64,000 nucleotides of DNA from Bosea sp. (in: a-proteobacteria). Its GTDB lineage: Bacteria; Pseudomonadota; Alphaproteobacteria; Rhizobiales; Beijerinckiaceae. Positions 43,462 through 50,077 of this stretch are shown piece after piece. The stretch covers positions 3,400,698-3,464,697 of the forward strand of contig JAAVVV010000001.1 of the NCBI GenBank assembly GCA_023910605.1, written 5' to 3'. Made by a program: the position numbers and the translations under genes. How positions within the stretch are numbered: the stretch's first letter is position 1; each line of letters starts with the position of its first letter. Below the pieces are notes generated by a model that saw only the letters and a program-made list of their open reading frames with translations, did not search any database and was not told where the DNA came from.

Positions 43462-44823
43462 ATGAAGATCGCTGTCGTGGGCACTGGTTATGTGGGCCTC
43501 GTCACAGGAGTGTGCCTGGCGCTCGACGGGCATGAGGTCACCTGCATCGACAGGGATGCGGCGAAAGTGGCGATGATGGCGCGCGGCGCCTGCCCCATCT
43601 ACGAGGACCAGCTCGAAGCACTGATGCGGCAGGCCCTTGCGGGCGGCCACCTTGCCTTCACCGCCGACATCGCGGGGCCCGTCGCCGGGGCCGATCTCGT
43701 CTTCATCTGTGTGGGCACGCCGCCACGCCCCTCCGATGGCCATGCCGACATGGCGCAGGTTCATGCTGCCGCGGCCGAAATCGGGCTCGCGCTGAGCGCG
43801 GATGCATCCCGCGAGACGATCGTGGCGCTCAAGTCCACTGTTCCGGTCGGCACGGGCGACGAGGTTCATGCCATCATGGCGCGGGCCAACCCCCCGGCCC
43901 GCTTCACGGTGGTGTCGAACCCGGAGTTCCTGCGCGAGGGCTCGGCCGTGCGCGATTTCCAGAACCCGGACCGCATCGTGGTCGGCGCGGAGAGCGAAGC
44001 CGCGACTGCGCGCATGAAGGCGCTTTACGCCGCCCACCTGTCGCGCGGCGTGCCGCTGCTCGCCACCAACCGGCGCACATCGGAGCTCATCAAATATGCG
44101 TCCAACTCCTTCCTCGCGCTGAAGATCACCTTCATCAACGAGCTTGCCAACCTGTGCGAGGAGATCAGGGCGGACGTGCAGGATGTCTCCCATGGCATGG
44201 GGCTGGACACCCGCATCGGGGCGAAGTTCCTCCAGCCGGGGCCCGGCTTCGGTGGTTCGTGCTTTCCCAAGGACATGCTGGCGCTGATGAAGACGGCCCA
44301 GGATCACGGCGTGCCGCTGCGCACCATCGAGACGGCGGTGGCCGTCAATGACAGCCGCAAGGGCGAGATGGTGCGCAAGATCACCAGCGCCGCAGGGGGC
44401 TCGGTCGAGGGCCGGACCATCGCCGTGCTGGGCCTGACCTTCAAGCCCGACACGGACGACATGCGCGCCTCGGTGTCGCTGGTCGTCATCCCGCAGCTCG
44501 TCAAGGCCGGGGCGACCATCCGCGCCTATGATCCGGTGGGGATGGACAATGCGCGCCCGCTTCTGCCTGACATCGCCTTCGCCGCCAGTGCGGCAGAGGC
44601 CCTGCGCGGCGCCGACCTCGCCGTGATCCTGACCGAATGGGCCGAGTTCCGCACGCTCGATCTCACCGCGGTCGCGTCCTTGCTGAACGAGCCGGTGATG
44701 GTGGACCTGCGCAACATCTTCAGCCCCGAAGCCGCCGCAGCCGCCGGCCTCGCCTATCACTCCATCGGCCGCGCCCCACGCCGGCGCGGGCCGCGCCCTG
44801 CGGATGTGCGAAAGGCCGGTTGA
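43462..44823 (+). CDS. ugd: UDP-glucose 6-dehydrogenase
   Basis: Oxidises UDP-glucose to UDP-glucuronate, a precursor of surface polysaccharides. The 453-residue protein has the N-terminal NAD motif VVGTGYVGLVTGVCLAL, the KSTVPVGTGDEVHAI segment, the substrate-binding SNPEFLREGSAVRDF and the catalytic Cys in PGFGGSCFPKDMLALM. A second nucleotide-binding domain reads VLGLTFKPDTDDMRASVSL. The C-terminal tail is Arg/Pro-rich and a little longer than usual. No capsule genes are adjacent. Confidence 0.95.
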   Translation: MKIAVVGTGYVGLVTGVCLALDGHEVTCIDRDAAKVAMMARGACPIYEDQLEALMRQALAGGHLAFTADIAGPVAGADLVFICVGTPPRPSDGHADMAQVHAAAAEIGLALSADASRETIVALKSTVPVGTGDEVHAIMARANPPARFTVVSNPEFLREGSAVRDFQNPDRIVVGAESEAATARMKALYAAHLSRGVPLLATNRRTSELIKYASNSFLALKITFINELANLCEEIRADVQDVSHGMGLDTRIGAKFLQPGPGFGGSCFPKDMLALMKTAQDHGVPLRTIETAVAVNDSRKGEMVRKITSAAGGSVEGRTIAVLGLTFKPDTDDMRASVSLVVIPQLVKAGATIRAYDPVGMDNARPLLPDIAFAASAAEALRGADLAVILTEWAEFRTLDLTAVASLLNEPVMVDLRNIFSPEAAAAAGLAYHSIGRAPRRRGPRPADVRKAG

Positions 44824-44925: not shown

Positions 44926-45001
44926 TGGTGCCGCTTGAGGGATTCGAACCCCCGACCCCCTCATTACGAATGAGGTGCTCTACCAGCTGAGCTAAAGCGG
45001 C
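44926..45001 (-). tRNA. tRNA-Thr (anticodon CGT)
   Basis: A 76-base cloverleaf on the minus strand. The acceptor GCCGCTT pairs with AAGCGGC, the D arm is GCTC-AGCTGGTA-GAGC, the anticodon stem CCTCA/TGAGG closes the loop TTCGTAA (anticodon CGT, codon ACG) and the T loop is GGTTCGAATCC. CCA is encoded. No integrase or duplicated tRNA end is seen nearby. Confidence 0.96.
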
Positions 45002-45069: not shown

Positions 45070-46848
45070 TCAGCGCGAGAAGAAGCCCCAGAACGAACGC
45101 TTCCGGAGAGTCGGGGCATCGCGGTCAGCGCCCGGATCATCGGGCGGCCGGCTGAAATCCGGCCCTTTCGGCGGCGCCCCGGCAGCTGCGGCTGCGCCCG
45201 CCGGCTCGCTGACCGGCGCGGACGAGTGGTCGATGCGGACAGCGCCCTTTGCCGCAATCGGCTCGGCCATGGATACAGACCGGATCGCCTGCGGCTGGGC
45301 GCCGTTGCGGGTTGCGTGCGGCGGGACATTGGCTGCCTCCGGCAAGGCCTCCACGCGCGCCATGGACGGCGCGGCGCGAGGCGGAGGCACAGCCTCGGCC
45401 TCCGCCGTCATCGCGCTGGACGTCATCGGGCTGGAGTTGGCTGCGGGAGCGATGGCGATTGCGGGCGGCTCCGCCGCCGTGCCGGAGGGCGCATCCAGCG
45501 CTGCGGGCGCCAAGGCATCGGGCGCGGGCTCGATCCAGTCTTCCAGCACCGAGCCCGCGCCGCCCAGCATTGCGGGCGGCAGCGTCCACACAAAGGCATC
45601 GAGCCGGCCCGAAATGGGCGACACCGGCAGCCATCGTTCGGACACCACGCCATCGGCGACCCAGCAATTGTCGCGCGGGGCACGCACCGAGCGGGTCAGC
45701 CACTCGCGCCCCCGGCCCGAAGAGCCATGCTCCGCATCCTCGATCTGCGCCATCAGCAGGCAGGTCCTCACCGTGGGGATGGCGGCCACCAGCGGCGACA
45801 GGGCCGATCGGGCCCGCGCGAAATCCCGTGCCTGGATGGCAGCCTGTGCAACGGCGAAGGCGCTTTCCGGATCGAGCGGCTTGAGCTTCATCAGCGCCTC
45901 GGCCCGCATAAGCCGGTCCAGCGCGCTGTCGCCATGGCGAAGGTGAAGATAGATCTGCGCAAGATCAGGGTGCGGCTGCTCGCGCCAGGCTGCTTCGACA
46001 ATGCGGGCCGCCTTGCGCAGATCCCCACGCGCGCCGAGGAGGCGCCCCGCCATGGCCGCGGCCGGAACAAGCTCTGGCGCCAGCTTGACGGCATCAAGCG
46101 CGGCCGACAGCGCTCCGGCGGCGTCATGGTCTTCCTTGGCCTGCGCCTCGGCCGCCAGCAACACGGCGCGGTGGCGGCGCGATTCGGTTTTGTCGGCGAG
46201 CCGGAGAGCGGCCCGGCGCTCTACGGCGATGCGGGCCTTGTCCCATTCTCCGGCGTTGGAATGATGCTCGAGCAGGGCGTCATTGGCCCAGGCCAGGGAC
46301 GGCGACAGGCGCACAGCCTCGTCGGCGAAAGCCCGCGCGGCCATTTGGTCGCCGCGACGCCGCGCCTCGACGAACAGGCCGCGCAGGCCCAGCACGCGGG
46401 TGGCAGGCTCGTCGAGCATCTGCTTGAAGGCCGCTTCGGCCGCAGGCTTGTCGCCGGACAGCTGCGCCGACTGCGCGCTGAGCAGCAGGCTCAGCGCCTC
46501 GCTTCCGATGAGCTTGCGCGCATCGGCGGCATGGCGGCGGGCGGCCGCGGGGTCTCCCGCGCCGATGGCCACCATGCCGCGCGACACCGCCTCGAAGCCG
46601 CGCGCCCGCTTGCGGGCGCGGGATGCGAAGGAGAAGGCTGTGGGCAGGCCGAACATGAAGCTCACCAGCGTCCACAGCATCATGCCGAGCACGACCAGCA
46701 CGACGACGCCGATGGCCGCGATGGCGACAGTGGTCTCGATGGTGAGCCCCCCCCACACGATCGAGACCTCGCCGGGGCGTTCCGCCAGCCAGACAGCGCC
46801 CATGGCGAGAGCGCTGGCAACCGCGATGAAGACAAGAATCCGCCACAT
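45070..46848 (-). CDS. hemY: Haem biosynthesis protein HemY
   Basis: This is the TPR-containing HemY of proteobacteria, an inner-membrane protein of uncertain biochemical role encoded with hemC and hemD. It is not protoporphyrinogen oxidase. The 592-residue product has two N-terminal membrane segments (ILVFIAVASALAMGAVWLAE and TVAIAAIGVVVLVVLGMMLW) around VSIVWGGLTIET. Tandem helical repeats follow (SEALSLLLSAQSAQLSGDKP, ATRVLGLRGLFVEARRRGDQ), with the NCWVADGVVSERWLPVSPISGRLDAF-type segment and an Ala/Pro-rich tail. It starts five bases after the stop of the HemD-Mic60 gene. Confidence 0.92.
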   Translation of the reverse strand: MWRILVFIAVASALAMGAVWLAERPGEVSIVWGGLTIETTVAIAAIGVVVLVVLGMMLWTLVSFMFGLPTAFSFASRARKRARGFEAVSRGMVAIGAGDPAAARRHAADARKLIGSEALSLLLSAQSAQLSGDKPAAEAAFKQMLDEPATRVLGLRGLFVEARRRGDQMAARAFADEAVRLSPSLAWANDALLEHHSNAGEWDKARIAVERRAALRLADKTESRRHRAVLLAAEAQAKEDHDAAGALSAALDAVKLAPELVPAAAMAGRLLGARGDLRKAARIVEAAWREQPHPDLAQIYLHLRHGDSALDRLMRAEALMKLKPLDPESAFAVAQAAIQARDFARARSALSPLVAAIPTVRTCLLMAQIEDAEHGSSGRGREWLTRSVRAPRDNCWVADGVVSERWLPVSPISGRLDAFVWTLPPAMLGGAGSVLEDWIEPAPDALAPAALDAPSGTAAEPPAIAIAPAANSSPMTSSAMTAEAEAVPPPRAAPSMARVEALPEAANVPPHATRNGAQPQAIRSVSMAEPIAAKGAVRIDHSSAPVSEPAGAAAAAGAPPKGPDFSRPPDDPGADRDAPTLRKRSFWGFFSR

Positions 46849-46853
46849 GCCCG

Positions 46854-48995
46854 TCAGCCCTTGTCCTGCCTGTCCGACAGGGCCTTGATGGCGCTGTCGG
46901 TGATGGTCCTGATGGCCTGCTCGGCCCCGGCGCGCTGGCGCACCTGCCTGATCCAGGCTTCCGATGCGCGCCGCGCCGGTTCGGGCAGCTGGGCCCATGC
47001 GGCGGCGGCGGCGGCGCTGTCGCCGCGCTGCAGCGCCTGATCGATGCGTGCCGTCACGGCTACGGGAGACGAGCCCTCCACCGCGCCGGTGCTGCGCACG
47101 CGCACCAGCCCATCCGTCATCCTGAGCATCCGCTCATACCATGGCGAATCCGCCGAAGCGGGTTCAATGGCCAGCGCGGCCCGCAGGGTGCGGAATTCAG
47201 CAAGGAGCGGCTGGAGCGCCGGAGCGCCGGCCGCCGCAAGCGGCTGCAGGGCCGCCATCGGCTCCGCAGCCGCGCCGAGGGAGGACAGCGTCGTCCATTC
47301 ATTCTGGAAAGGCCGCCCCTCAGCCACGGCGCGCGCCAGCCTGTCGGCCACGATCAGCCTGGCCGCGGCCAAGGCGGCTCCACCCGGCTGACTGCCGGCA
47401 CGGCTGGCCGCCTCCGCCTGCGCCACACGTCCAGCCATCGCGCCGGCAGCCTGTTCGACCTGATCGAGGCGCTGGCGCAAGGATGCGACCATGGCGGCGT
47501 CGGGGCCGGAACTCGCCTGCACCTGAGCCGGACGCGCCTCAAATCCGGCGATGCGGGCTGACAACGCATCGAACTGCTGGCGCTGCTCGGCAGCCTGCGC
47601 GCCGATGCGCTCAAGGGCCCGGTCGAGCGTCGGCGACGCCGCAGACGGGGCCTGCGCGCGCGCCTCGACCTGGGACAGTCGCGCCGACAGCGCCTCGATG
47701 CCCGGCACGGGGGGCGGCGCCACGCCGAAGCGGCCCAGTTGCGGAGCCAGATAGGCATAGACGGCCGCTCCGACGACCCCGCCCATGAACGCGGCCGCCA
47801 CCACCCCCGCCCATCCCGGGCCGGGCCGGGCTGTGGTCACCGGCACGCTCCCCGGCCTCGAAGCGCCTGCTACGCCGGCTGCCGCCAGGGCGGGATCGGC
47901 AGCGACCGGAGCCGGATCGGCCGAGGTGGATTGAGGCGTGGAGAGCATAGGCGGGACAGGCGTGGACATGGCGCTGGCGGTGGGTTCAGGCGAAGCGCCG
48001 CCGTAAGGCGGGTCAGGCGCATCCGGAAGCGCCGGGCCCGCATCATGCGCCGGGCCGATGGCGGCGTCGGAAACTATGGCGCGCGAGGCTTCGCTCGATC
48101 GCGCCGGCGGGGCGCCGGCCTGCCTCACCCGGCTCGTCGCCCGGCTCGTCACCCGGCTCACAGGGGCCCGGACCGCGGCAGAGCCGCTCGCGGCCGCTTC
48201 GGCATCGGAGACGCCGTGCGCAACGCTGTCATCGGCGCCGCCTGCCGGGTCAGCGCCCGGCTGGTCAACGCCGTCCTGGGCGGGCGCAACCAGATCGAGC
48301 AGATGATCCTCATCGGGCTGCGGCGCGACGGCGATATGGGAGAATCCCGCCGACAGCAGCGGCTCCGCCACATCCGGCGACAGCGCGATGTGGCGCACCT
48401 TGGCCCAGTTTGCTGAAGCGCCGGCATCAAGCCCGGCCCCAGCGGCGAGGGCCGCGAAGGTTTCGCTCGCGCGGCGGGAGTAATGCAGCACGGCCGTGAT
48501 GCGGCCGGCCCTGAGGGCCTCGCGCGCAGCCTCGGGCAGCGTCGCAACGGGTTCCGCGCGGTAGCGGACCCACAGCGCGATCTCGTGCCCGGCTGCGGCG
48601 AAGGCGGCGGGCAGCCCGTCCTTGTGATCCTCGCCCGTGACCAGCAGAACGCGGAAGCGCGGCGGCAGCCTGGCCAGCACCAGCCGCGTCAACGCCTTCT
48701 GGTCGCCGGAGGCTGAGGTCACCTGGGTGAAGCCGTTCTCGCGGGCGGCCTCGGCCGTGCGATCGCCCACGGCGAAGACGGGCAGGTCCGCCGCCAGATC
48801 GGCGCTCTGCGGGGTCAGCCCCGCCACGCCATTGGCGCTGGTGACGATGAGGGCGGCGAAGCGGCCATTCGGACGGTCCGCGACAGTCGGCTGGATGGTG
48901 AACAGCGGCGCTGATATGGCCAGTGCCCCTCGCGCCGCGAGCGCGGCCACAGTGCGGCTCGCGCCGGGCTCGGGTCTGGTGACAAGAACGGTCAT
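46854..48995 (-). CDS. hemD: Fused uroporphyrinogen-III synthase (HemD) and Mic60/mitofilin-type membrane protein
   Basis: One uninterrupted 713-residue frame. Residues 1-235 are a complete HemD, which closes hydroxymethylbilane to uroporphyrinogen III (MTVLVTRPEPGASRT, FAALIVTSANGV, FAVGDRTAEAARENGF, VLHYSRRASETFAAL, GFSHIAVAPQPDEDHLLDLV). Residues 240-392 are an Ala/Pro/Ser-rich linker. A membrane segment at about 395-417 (WAGVVAAAFMGGVVGAAVYAYL) is followed by a coiled-coil stretch and a C-terminal helical domain like COG4223/Mic60 (the WTTLSSLGAAAEPMAALQPL region). Mic60-type proteins shape membranes and sit in the haem operon of alphaproteobacteria, normally as a separate gene. The internal ATG at 47969 has no ribosome site, supporting a true fusion. 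Confidence 0.88.
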   Translation of the reverse strand: MTVLVTRPEPGASRTVAALAARGALAISAPLFTIQPTVADRPNGRFAALIVTSANGVAGLTPQSADLAADLPVFAVGDRTAEAARENGFTQVTSASGDQKALTRLVLARLPPRFRVLLVTGEDHKDGLPAAFAAAGHEIALWVRYRAEPVATLPEAAREALRAGRITAVLHYSRRASETFAALAAGAGLDAGASANWAKVRHIALSPDVAEPLLSAGFSHIAVAPQPDEDHLLDLVAPAQDGVDQPGADPAGGADDSVAHGVSDAEAAASGSAAVRAPVSRVTSRATSRVRQAGAPPARSSEASRAIVSDAAIGPAHDAGPALPDAPDPPYGGASPEPTASAMSTPVPPMLSTPQSTSADPAPVAADPALAAAGVAGASRPGSVPVTTARPGPGWAGVVAAAFMGGVVGAAVYAYLAPQLGRFGVAPPPVPGIEALSARLSQVEARAQAPSAASPTLDRALERIGAQAAEQRQQFDALSARIAGFEARPAQVQASSGPDAAMVASLRQRLDQVEQAAGAMAGRVAQAEAASRAGSQPGGAALAAARLIVADRLARAVAEGRPFQNEWTTLSSLGAAAEPMAALQPLAAAGAPALQPLLAEFRTLRAALAIEPASADSPWYERMLRMTDGLVRVRSTGAVEGSSPVAVTARIDQALQRGDSAAAAAAWAQLPEPARRASEAWIRQVRQRAGAEQAIRTITDSAIKALSDRQDKG

Positions 48996-49141
48996 CGCTC
49001 CCCTTTCGCCTGTTCAATCGCTGCGGGCAGGCACGGTCCCGCCTGACAGAATGTCACGCCAGCCGGGAAAGTTGCCCCGGCGGGCCTGCGGGCATCGGCG
49101 CGCTTCGGCCGGCTGCCGACGCGGGCGGTGGCGCGCCTGCA

Positions 49142-50077
49142 TCAGGCGTAGACGCCGGATGGAGCCCGGGCCCGCAGCATGGCCCCCAGTTCCTGCCCCA
49201 TGCGCGCGCAGTCCGCAACAGGGCCGCTGAGCTTGCCTTCGGCGGCATCCGAGCCGTCGGGCGAAAGGATGAGCCCCTTGAGCGTGAGCACGCCGCCGCT
49301 GATGGTGGCGTGACCGGCGATGGGCGTGCGGCATGAGCCGTCCAGAACCTTCAGCATGGCTCGCTCGGCCGTGACGCACAGCCCCGTTTCGGCACAGGAT
49401 ACGGCGTCGACCGCCCGCTGGGCCGCCTCATCGCCGTGCCTCACCACAAGGCCGATGGCGCCTTGCCCGACGGCCGGCAGCATCTCGTCGGTGGAGAGGA
49501 TGGCGCTGGCGCGGGCCGCCAGCCCCAGCCGCCGCAAGCCCGCGATCGCCAGAAGCGTGGCATGGAACTGCCCGGCCGCGAGCTTGTCGAGCCGCGTGCC
49601 CACGCTGCCGCGCAGCAGCATCACCTCGCAATCGGGCCGGGCGCGCTTGACGATCGCCTGCCGGCGCAGCGAGGCGGAGCCGATCCTCGCGCCCTGAGGC
49701 AGGCTGCCCAGGCCATCGAGCGGCCCGATGCCGATCAGTGCGTCGCGCGCATCCTCACGCGGCAGATAGCCCGCCAGCACCAGCCCCTCGGGCAACTCGG
49801 TCGGCAGGTCCTTCGAGGAATGGACGGCGATATCGACCCGGCCCGAGAGCTGCGCGGCGTCGATCTCCTTTGTGAAGAGCCCCTTGCCGCCCGCTTCCGA
49901 CAAGGCCCGATCCTGGATGGCGTCGCCCGTGGTGCGGATCACGTCGAGCGGGAAATCGCTGACGGGGCGCCCCAGCGCCTCGCCCAGCCGGGCGGCCAGC
50001 TCATGCGCCTGGGCAAGCGCCAGGGGGCTGCCCCGTGTGCCCAGCACCAGAAGCTTGTCGAGTTGTGTCGCGGCCAT
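49142..50077 (-). CDS. hemC: Porphobilinogen deaminase (hydroxymethylbilane synthase)
   Basis: Condenses four porphobilinogen units to hydroxymethylbilane. The 311-residue product has LVLGTRGSPLALAQA at the start, the catalytic Asp region VHSSKDLPTELPEGL, the LLRGSVGTRLDKLAAGQF substrate loop and the dipyrromethane cofactor Cys in LKVLDGSCRTPIAGHA. The ATG at 50077 is preceded by GGGGAGCC. Gene order hemC, hemD-Mic60, hemY on the minus strand is the usual haem group of this order, with 146 bases between hemC and the fused hemD. It is divergent from tsaD. Confidence 0.97.
   Translation of the reverse strand: MAATQLDKLLVLGTRGSPLALAQAHELAARLGEALGRPVSDFPLDVIRTTGDAIQDRALSEAGGKGLFTKEIDAAQLSGRVDIAVHSSKDLPTELPEGLVLAGYLPREDARDALIGIGPLDGLGSLPQGARIGSASLRRQAIVKRARPDCEVMLLRGSVGTRLDKLAAGQFHATLLAIAGLRRLGLAARASAILSTDEMLPAVGQGAIGLVVRHGDEAAQRAVDAVSCAETGLCVTAERAMLKVLDGSCRTPIAGHATISGGVLTLKGLILSPDGSDAAEGKLSGPVADCARMGQELGAMLRARAPSGVYA

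Follow-up and report, generated by a model that had tools for sequence, protein, structure and literature searches.

We describe a gene of Bosea sp. in which uroporphyrinogen-III synthase (HemD) is joined in frame to a Mic60-type membrane protein. We hold it very probable that this is a true HemD-Mic60 fusion, made by loss of the hemD stop codon, and that it tethers at the inner membrane the genome's sole detected HemD. The gene lies in the window, by which we mean the whole 64,000-nucleotide stretch of DNA that was analysed.

Results

The fused gene and its domains

The fusion occupies one continuous frame with no internal stop and sits among genes of haem synthesis (Table 1). The hemC gene lies upstream, hemY starts 5 nt downstream of the fusion's stop, and tsaD opposes hemC head-to-head. 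Beyond hemY, a tRNA-Thr gene is followed by a frame at 43462-44823 that resembles UDP-glucose dehydrogenase, a name given from reading the sequence. The neighborhood of hemC differs at some other loci. In L077 (Bosea sp. OK403) and L084 (Bosea robiniae), tsaD directly faces the fused gene with no hemC between them, and HemC was not detected by phmmer in 67 of 167 loci, many of these 167 having short flanks. HemC is also missing from the operon order given for Rhodobacteraceae in excerpts of a published paper (PMC7641849).

Table 1. Features of the fused gene and its surroundings in the window.
Feature	Residues	Position	Strand	Basis or remark
Fused hemD-mic60 gene	1-713	46854..48995	-	713 aa plus stop, ATG start, stop-free inside
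SD-like GGGGAG ahead of the fusion's ATG		48998..49003	-	duplex energy -8.1
Uroporphyrinogen-III synthase (HemD) domain	1-235	48291..48995	-	HEM4, Foldseek, pLDDT
Disordered Ala/Pro/Ser-rich linker	236-394	47814..48290	-	pLDDT, composition
Internal GTG just before the membrane helix	386	47838..47840	-	strong SD-like sequence, -10.3
Membrane helix	395-422	47730..47813	-	model; hydropathy peak from residue 398
Predicted coiled-coil helices	431-532	47400..47705	-	structure models
Mitofilin-type C-terminal domain, helical	539-710	46866..47381	-	profile A3 against PDB 7pv1
hemY (membrane protein with TPR)		45070..46848	-	HemY_N, E 1.1e-25
hemC, hydroxymethylbilane synthase, upstream of the fusion		49142..50077	-	TIGR00212, 296.6 bits
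tRNA-Thr (CGT), between hemY and the 43462-44823 frame		44926-45001	-	

The N-terminal domain is readily recognised as HemD. Pfam HEM4 matches residues 14-233 (E 1.2e-33; 116.6 bits against a curated cut-off of 27.5), and an AlphaFold2 model of the whole protein, built from 35 aligned fused sequences, places residues 1-235 mostly above a pLDDT of 90. Foldseek gives 13 matches of this domain at E <= 0.001, each of them a solved uroporphyrinogen-III synthase, with 3re1 at the top (E 1.3e-11). Since the fused gene holds the only HEM4 match in the genome, its HemD domain is expected to be a working enzyme.

Identification of the C-terminal domain depended on profiles. As a single sequence, the protein matches Pfam Mitofilin (PF09731) at residues 639-699 with E 5.8e-4, the only such match in the genome, but it scores 19.3-22.1 bits against a cut-off of 27.4. 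In alignment A2, a Mitofilin match at E <= 0.01 is reached by only 21 of 106 members, so the Pfam model is insensitive for this group. In a PDB search, the longer A2 profile matched the Mic60-Mic19 structure 7pv1 (E 1.8e-8) among 476 sequences, the best 60 of which are mostly coiled-coil matches. For that reason profile A3 was made without the coiled coil, from 60 C-terminal domains, and its sole significant match among 177,635 distinct PDB sequences is 7pv1 (E 2.2e-9), the next best standing at E 1. The C-terminal domain, on this profile match, is the mitofilin domain of Mic60. Its model is confident at residues 541-600 and 651-710 (pLDDT 90-97) and weaker at 601-650 (47-84). Foldseek found no match at E <= 0.001 for a 328-residue C-terminal model, which counts only weakly against Mic60 because long helices form much of that model.

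Between the two domains, nearly all of residues 240-394 fall below a pLDDT of 50. The membrane helix and coiled-coil helices that follow are of medium confidence (10-residue means of about 47-80), and their succession, seen in the models and, for the helix, in hydropathy, is that of Mic60. The positive-inside signal is weak, with a net charge of +1 on either side of the membrane helix. By analogy with the topology of free Mic60, the coiled coil and mitofilin domain would be periplasmic and HemD cytoplasmic. The original prediction, made from the sequence alone, had described a continuous 713-residue frame in a haem operon, with HemD at residues 1-235 and a Mic60/mitofilin-type C-terminal part. 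Each of these statements is borne out, and the domain boundaries proposed agree with the AlphaFold2 model to within a few residues. It also named alphaproteobacterial Mic60 as COG4223.

The fusion is common to the sampled genus

By search, 36 other genomes were placed in the genus of the window, and all 36 loci were fetched. Every one carries HemD and Mic60 in one stop-free frame, two of the frames being truncated where a contig ends. One further genome of the genus, G293 (the 37th), stands outside this set, its HemD and Mic60 matches lying on different contigs. A contig search with alignment A1 as query returned 57 named loci, where a single-protein query returned no relatives. Many of these loci are named Bosea and they partly repeat the genus genomes; 44 are fused and 8 split, and in the other 5 just one of the two domains was seen. 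In all 12 close genus pairs, drawn from genes other than that of the window, linker dN/dS is below 1, at 0.13-0.64 against 0.08-0.20 for HemD. These observations confirm that the fusion is real and common to the whole sampled genus. A sequencing or assembly error concealing a stop is rejected for the genus, with all 36 loci in frame and the relatives' linkers constrained, and for the window we give such an error next to no credence.

The fusion recurs outside the genus

From 24 genomes, one for each other family of the order, 21 loci were fetched; 20 hold both genes, split in every case, and the remaining one shows HemD alone. Loci L130-L140, 11 from the order that were selected because their HemD frame is long, comprise 4 fused and 7 split cases, so that within the order a long open frame predicts fusion poorly. 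Within the family of the window, 6 of 40 loci are fused and 34 split, about half of the 40 having been chosen as likely fusions, and the fusion occurs in four of its genera besides that of the window. The order and family loci together gave ten fusions outside the genus, in genera g32, g90, g92, g120, g127, g121 and g148. Genus g120 is mixed, with G292 and G329 fused and G383 split. In seven family genomes (G338, G291, G387, G378, G361, G274 and G364) hemD and the mic60 match are widely separated on one contig, and the pair is therefore not always adjacent.

A search of the class covered 240 genomes, 165 of them with a match, and candidates were drawn among the matches listed. Of 34 long-frame HemD matches taken outside the order from those listed, 31 are HemD-Mic60 fusions by profile, spread over 22 families; of the remaining three, one has no Mic60 match and two carry Mic60 in a frame of its own. 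None of six shorter-frame loci outside the order is fused, and one of these lacks a Mic60 match. These loci were chosen by frame length, so the counts are not class frequencies. At L247, the HemD frame continues into a tail of 408 residues that includes a strongly hydrophobic segment and has no Mic60 profile match; the tail may be a highly diverged Mic60 or a different partner. Plasmids were also searched with the fused protein of L222, and each of the 16 records returned covered less than 80% of the query.

Two quick trees were used to follow the state of the locus. The first, from HemC, HemD and Mic60 (100 rows, 31 fused, HemC missing for some), unites the 21 genus rows, every one fused, in a single clade, and 10 of the 79 rows outside the genus are fused. 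It needs 7 changes of the fused state, whether gains or losses, 6 of them forced by well supported branches. The second, from HemD and Mic60 only (122 rows), needs 13 changes, 7 of them forced. As the trees place it, the fusion arose several times among related bacteria and is a recurring arrangement, not a one-off. The original prediction had held that the two genes are normally separate, and had proposed comparing the hemC-hemY interval among close relatives. Separate genes are indeed the state in nearly all loci sampled in the order's other families, but as worded the claim is not supported, given a fusion that is common to the whole sampled genus, present in other genera of the family and found in 22 families beyond the order.

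The junction and internal starts

In many split relatives the free Mic60 starts at a Met and runs through a polar stretch and basic residues to a P-x-T-I-D-L-like motif. Most fused genus genes hold a TPPTI-like motif inside the linker, and a Met ahead of it is kept in 21 of the 35 aligned (alignment A1, column 286 counted from 0). Across those 21 rows, 12 of the 105 linker columns that are mostly filled show no variation, and this Met is among the 12. The SD-like energy at the kept Met averages -5.6, against -3.3 for 537 internal ATGs drawn from the TsaD, HemY and GpsA frames only, and the p of 1e-6 is overstated since the rows are related. We read this Met, with its SD-like sequence, as the old mic60 start, now enclosed in the fused frame. 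By comparison with the free proteins, the linker would replace the intergenic stretch and the N-terminal region of Mic60. The window linker has lost both the Met and the TPPTI motif, and its own junction is therefore not directly readable.

The kept Met could also be a second translation start, and one gene may then yield both the fusion and a free Mic60 by internal initiation. The window offers a possible start of its own at GTG 386, whose SD-like energy is matched in strength by 15 of 708 internal NTG codons (2.1%) in the long frames of the window; this start was not among the three best candidates listed for any of the relatives L003, L004 and L005. Against two products stands the absence of the old-start Met from 14 of 35 genes: that of the window, its three closest relatives in the alignment, and ten more from the genus. 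Moreover, AAG GAC is the expected GC-rich coding for Lys-Asp, and the SD-like stretch may thus be coding only. Weighing the energies at the kept Met and at GTG 386 against these points, we regard dual products as doubtful. The absence of an internal ribosome site had been taken as a sign of one polypeptide. That view is upheld at the internal ATG then considered (47967-47969, residue 343; no SD-like sequence, -0.3), but it does not extend to GTG 386 or to the 21 genus genes that keep the Met.

Discussion

Our preferred reading is a fusion by stop loss. We propose a model where the ancestral order was hemC-hemD-mic60-hemY, with hemD adjoining mic60. In the ancestor of the genus the hemD stop would have been lost, an event that we infer from sequence comparison, and reading would have continued through a short intergenic stretch into mic60, turning the disordered N-terminus of Mic60 into the linker. 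The product would then be a cytoplasmic synthase followed by about 150 flexible residues, a single-pass anchor and a periplasmic coiled coil and mitofilin domain, if the topology is that of free Mic60. Being the sole copy detected, the tethered HemD is expected to provide all of the uroporphyrinogen III that goes into haem. The tether would put the enzyme at the inner membrane, where it may be held near HemY.

Whether this arrangement has a role of its own is a separate matter, and the chances seem to us evenly balanced that it has none. A single stop lost between adjacent operon genes, in GC-rich and stop-poor DNA, would suffice, and a floppy Mic60 N-terminus would make the outcome harmless. 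Such an origin is close at hand in 13 split loci (L037, L049, L050, L122, L126, L134, L139, L145, L153 and L162-L165; partly chosen, hence no frequency), in which the two genes lie in the same frame, that of mic60 being open from the hemD stop onward. These neighbors a single stop apart, together with the mixed states within genus g120, favor the ease of fusion. It is also consistent with neutrality that in 9 of 12 genus pairs identity is lower in the linker than in the three other regions compared. Less readily explained by a neutral event are a fusion common to the whole sampled genus, carrying the only HemD found and a linker that stays open and constrained, and the recurrence of the fusion elsewhere.

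Alternatively, tethering may have been selected, keeping HemD beside HemY or at membrane invaginations, which would allow an unstable intermediate to be passed on and make the supply of tetrapyrroles track membrane growth. This is a plausible but tentative reading, and we would not call it the probable one. It is in keeping with the conserved order hemC-hemD-mic60-hemY, which also appears in excerpts of PMC7641849, with the recurrent fusion seen in both trees and in the class loci, and with the existence of a HemD-HemX fusion family (NF005411). It sits poorly with family genomes such as G338 and G291, where the mic60 match is distant from hemD, and with the lack of a link to phototrophy. The genome of the window has two Photo_RC matches (G000:C1:1274426-1276100), and with reaction-centre genes present, uroporphyrinogen III probably feeds bacteriochlorophyll as well. 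Phototrophy as the cause of the fusion was nevertheless rejected, as reaction centres occur in 5 of the 25 genus genomes scanned and the fusion in all 25. Recurrence and fixation favor at least the compatibility of HemD with Mic60. It is tempting to speculate further that the two are recurrent physical partners, repeatedly joined in alphaproteobacteria because tetrapyrrole supply and inner-membrane shaping are coupled, with part of Bosea also making free Mic60 from a retained internal start, but we consider this combination unlikely.

Repeated natural fusions of HemD suggest that HemD and Mic60 can work as one molecule, and they provide a ready-made test of a link between haem synthesis and membrane shaping. 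The HemD-Mic60 arrangement is also wide enough to merit annotation as a domain architecture. No explanation for the presence of bacterial mic60 in the haem operon was found in the portions of the literature examined. Mitochondrial Mic60 descends from alphaproteobacterial Mic60, according to excerpts of two papers (PMC12631773, PMC12136173). We found no description of a HemD-Mic60 fusion in the literature searched, and one may be in print among papers on bacterial or ancestral Mic60 outside that search.

Among the nearest known systems is a HemD-HemX fusion, already recognised as NCBIfam family NF005411 (PRK06975), which, like the fusion in the window, joins HemD in frame with a membrane protein, there named HemX. 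Membership of this family was rejected by score, the window protein reaching 26.2 bits against a cut-off of 414, and HemX (PF04375) has no match in the window's genome. In excerpts of PMC7641849, the alphaproteobacterial partner is presented as a diverged HemX homologue that is also homologous to mitofilin. When whole profiles of HemX and Mic60 were aligned with hhalign, the probability was 64-69% with a local match in the coiled coil, and it was 1.1% over 16 columns for the Mic60 C-terminal domain alone; HemX-Mic60 homology is only weakly visible in these profiles.

The same excerpts of PMC7641849 describe an alphaproteobacterial operon hemC-hemD-IMMP-hemY facing tsaD-gpsA, and the window shares both this gene order and the head-to-head tsaD. 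There, HemD and IMMP are named as separate members with no mention of a fusion, whereas in the window they are one protein. With alphaproteobacterial Mic60, the fusion has in common the membrane helix, the coiled coil, the mitofilin domain and the placement between hemD and hemY. It is unlike free Mic60 in that its single sequence falls under the Pfam cut-off and in that it bears a complete HemD at its N-terminus.
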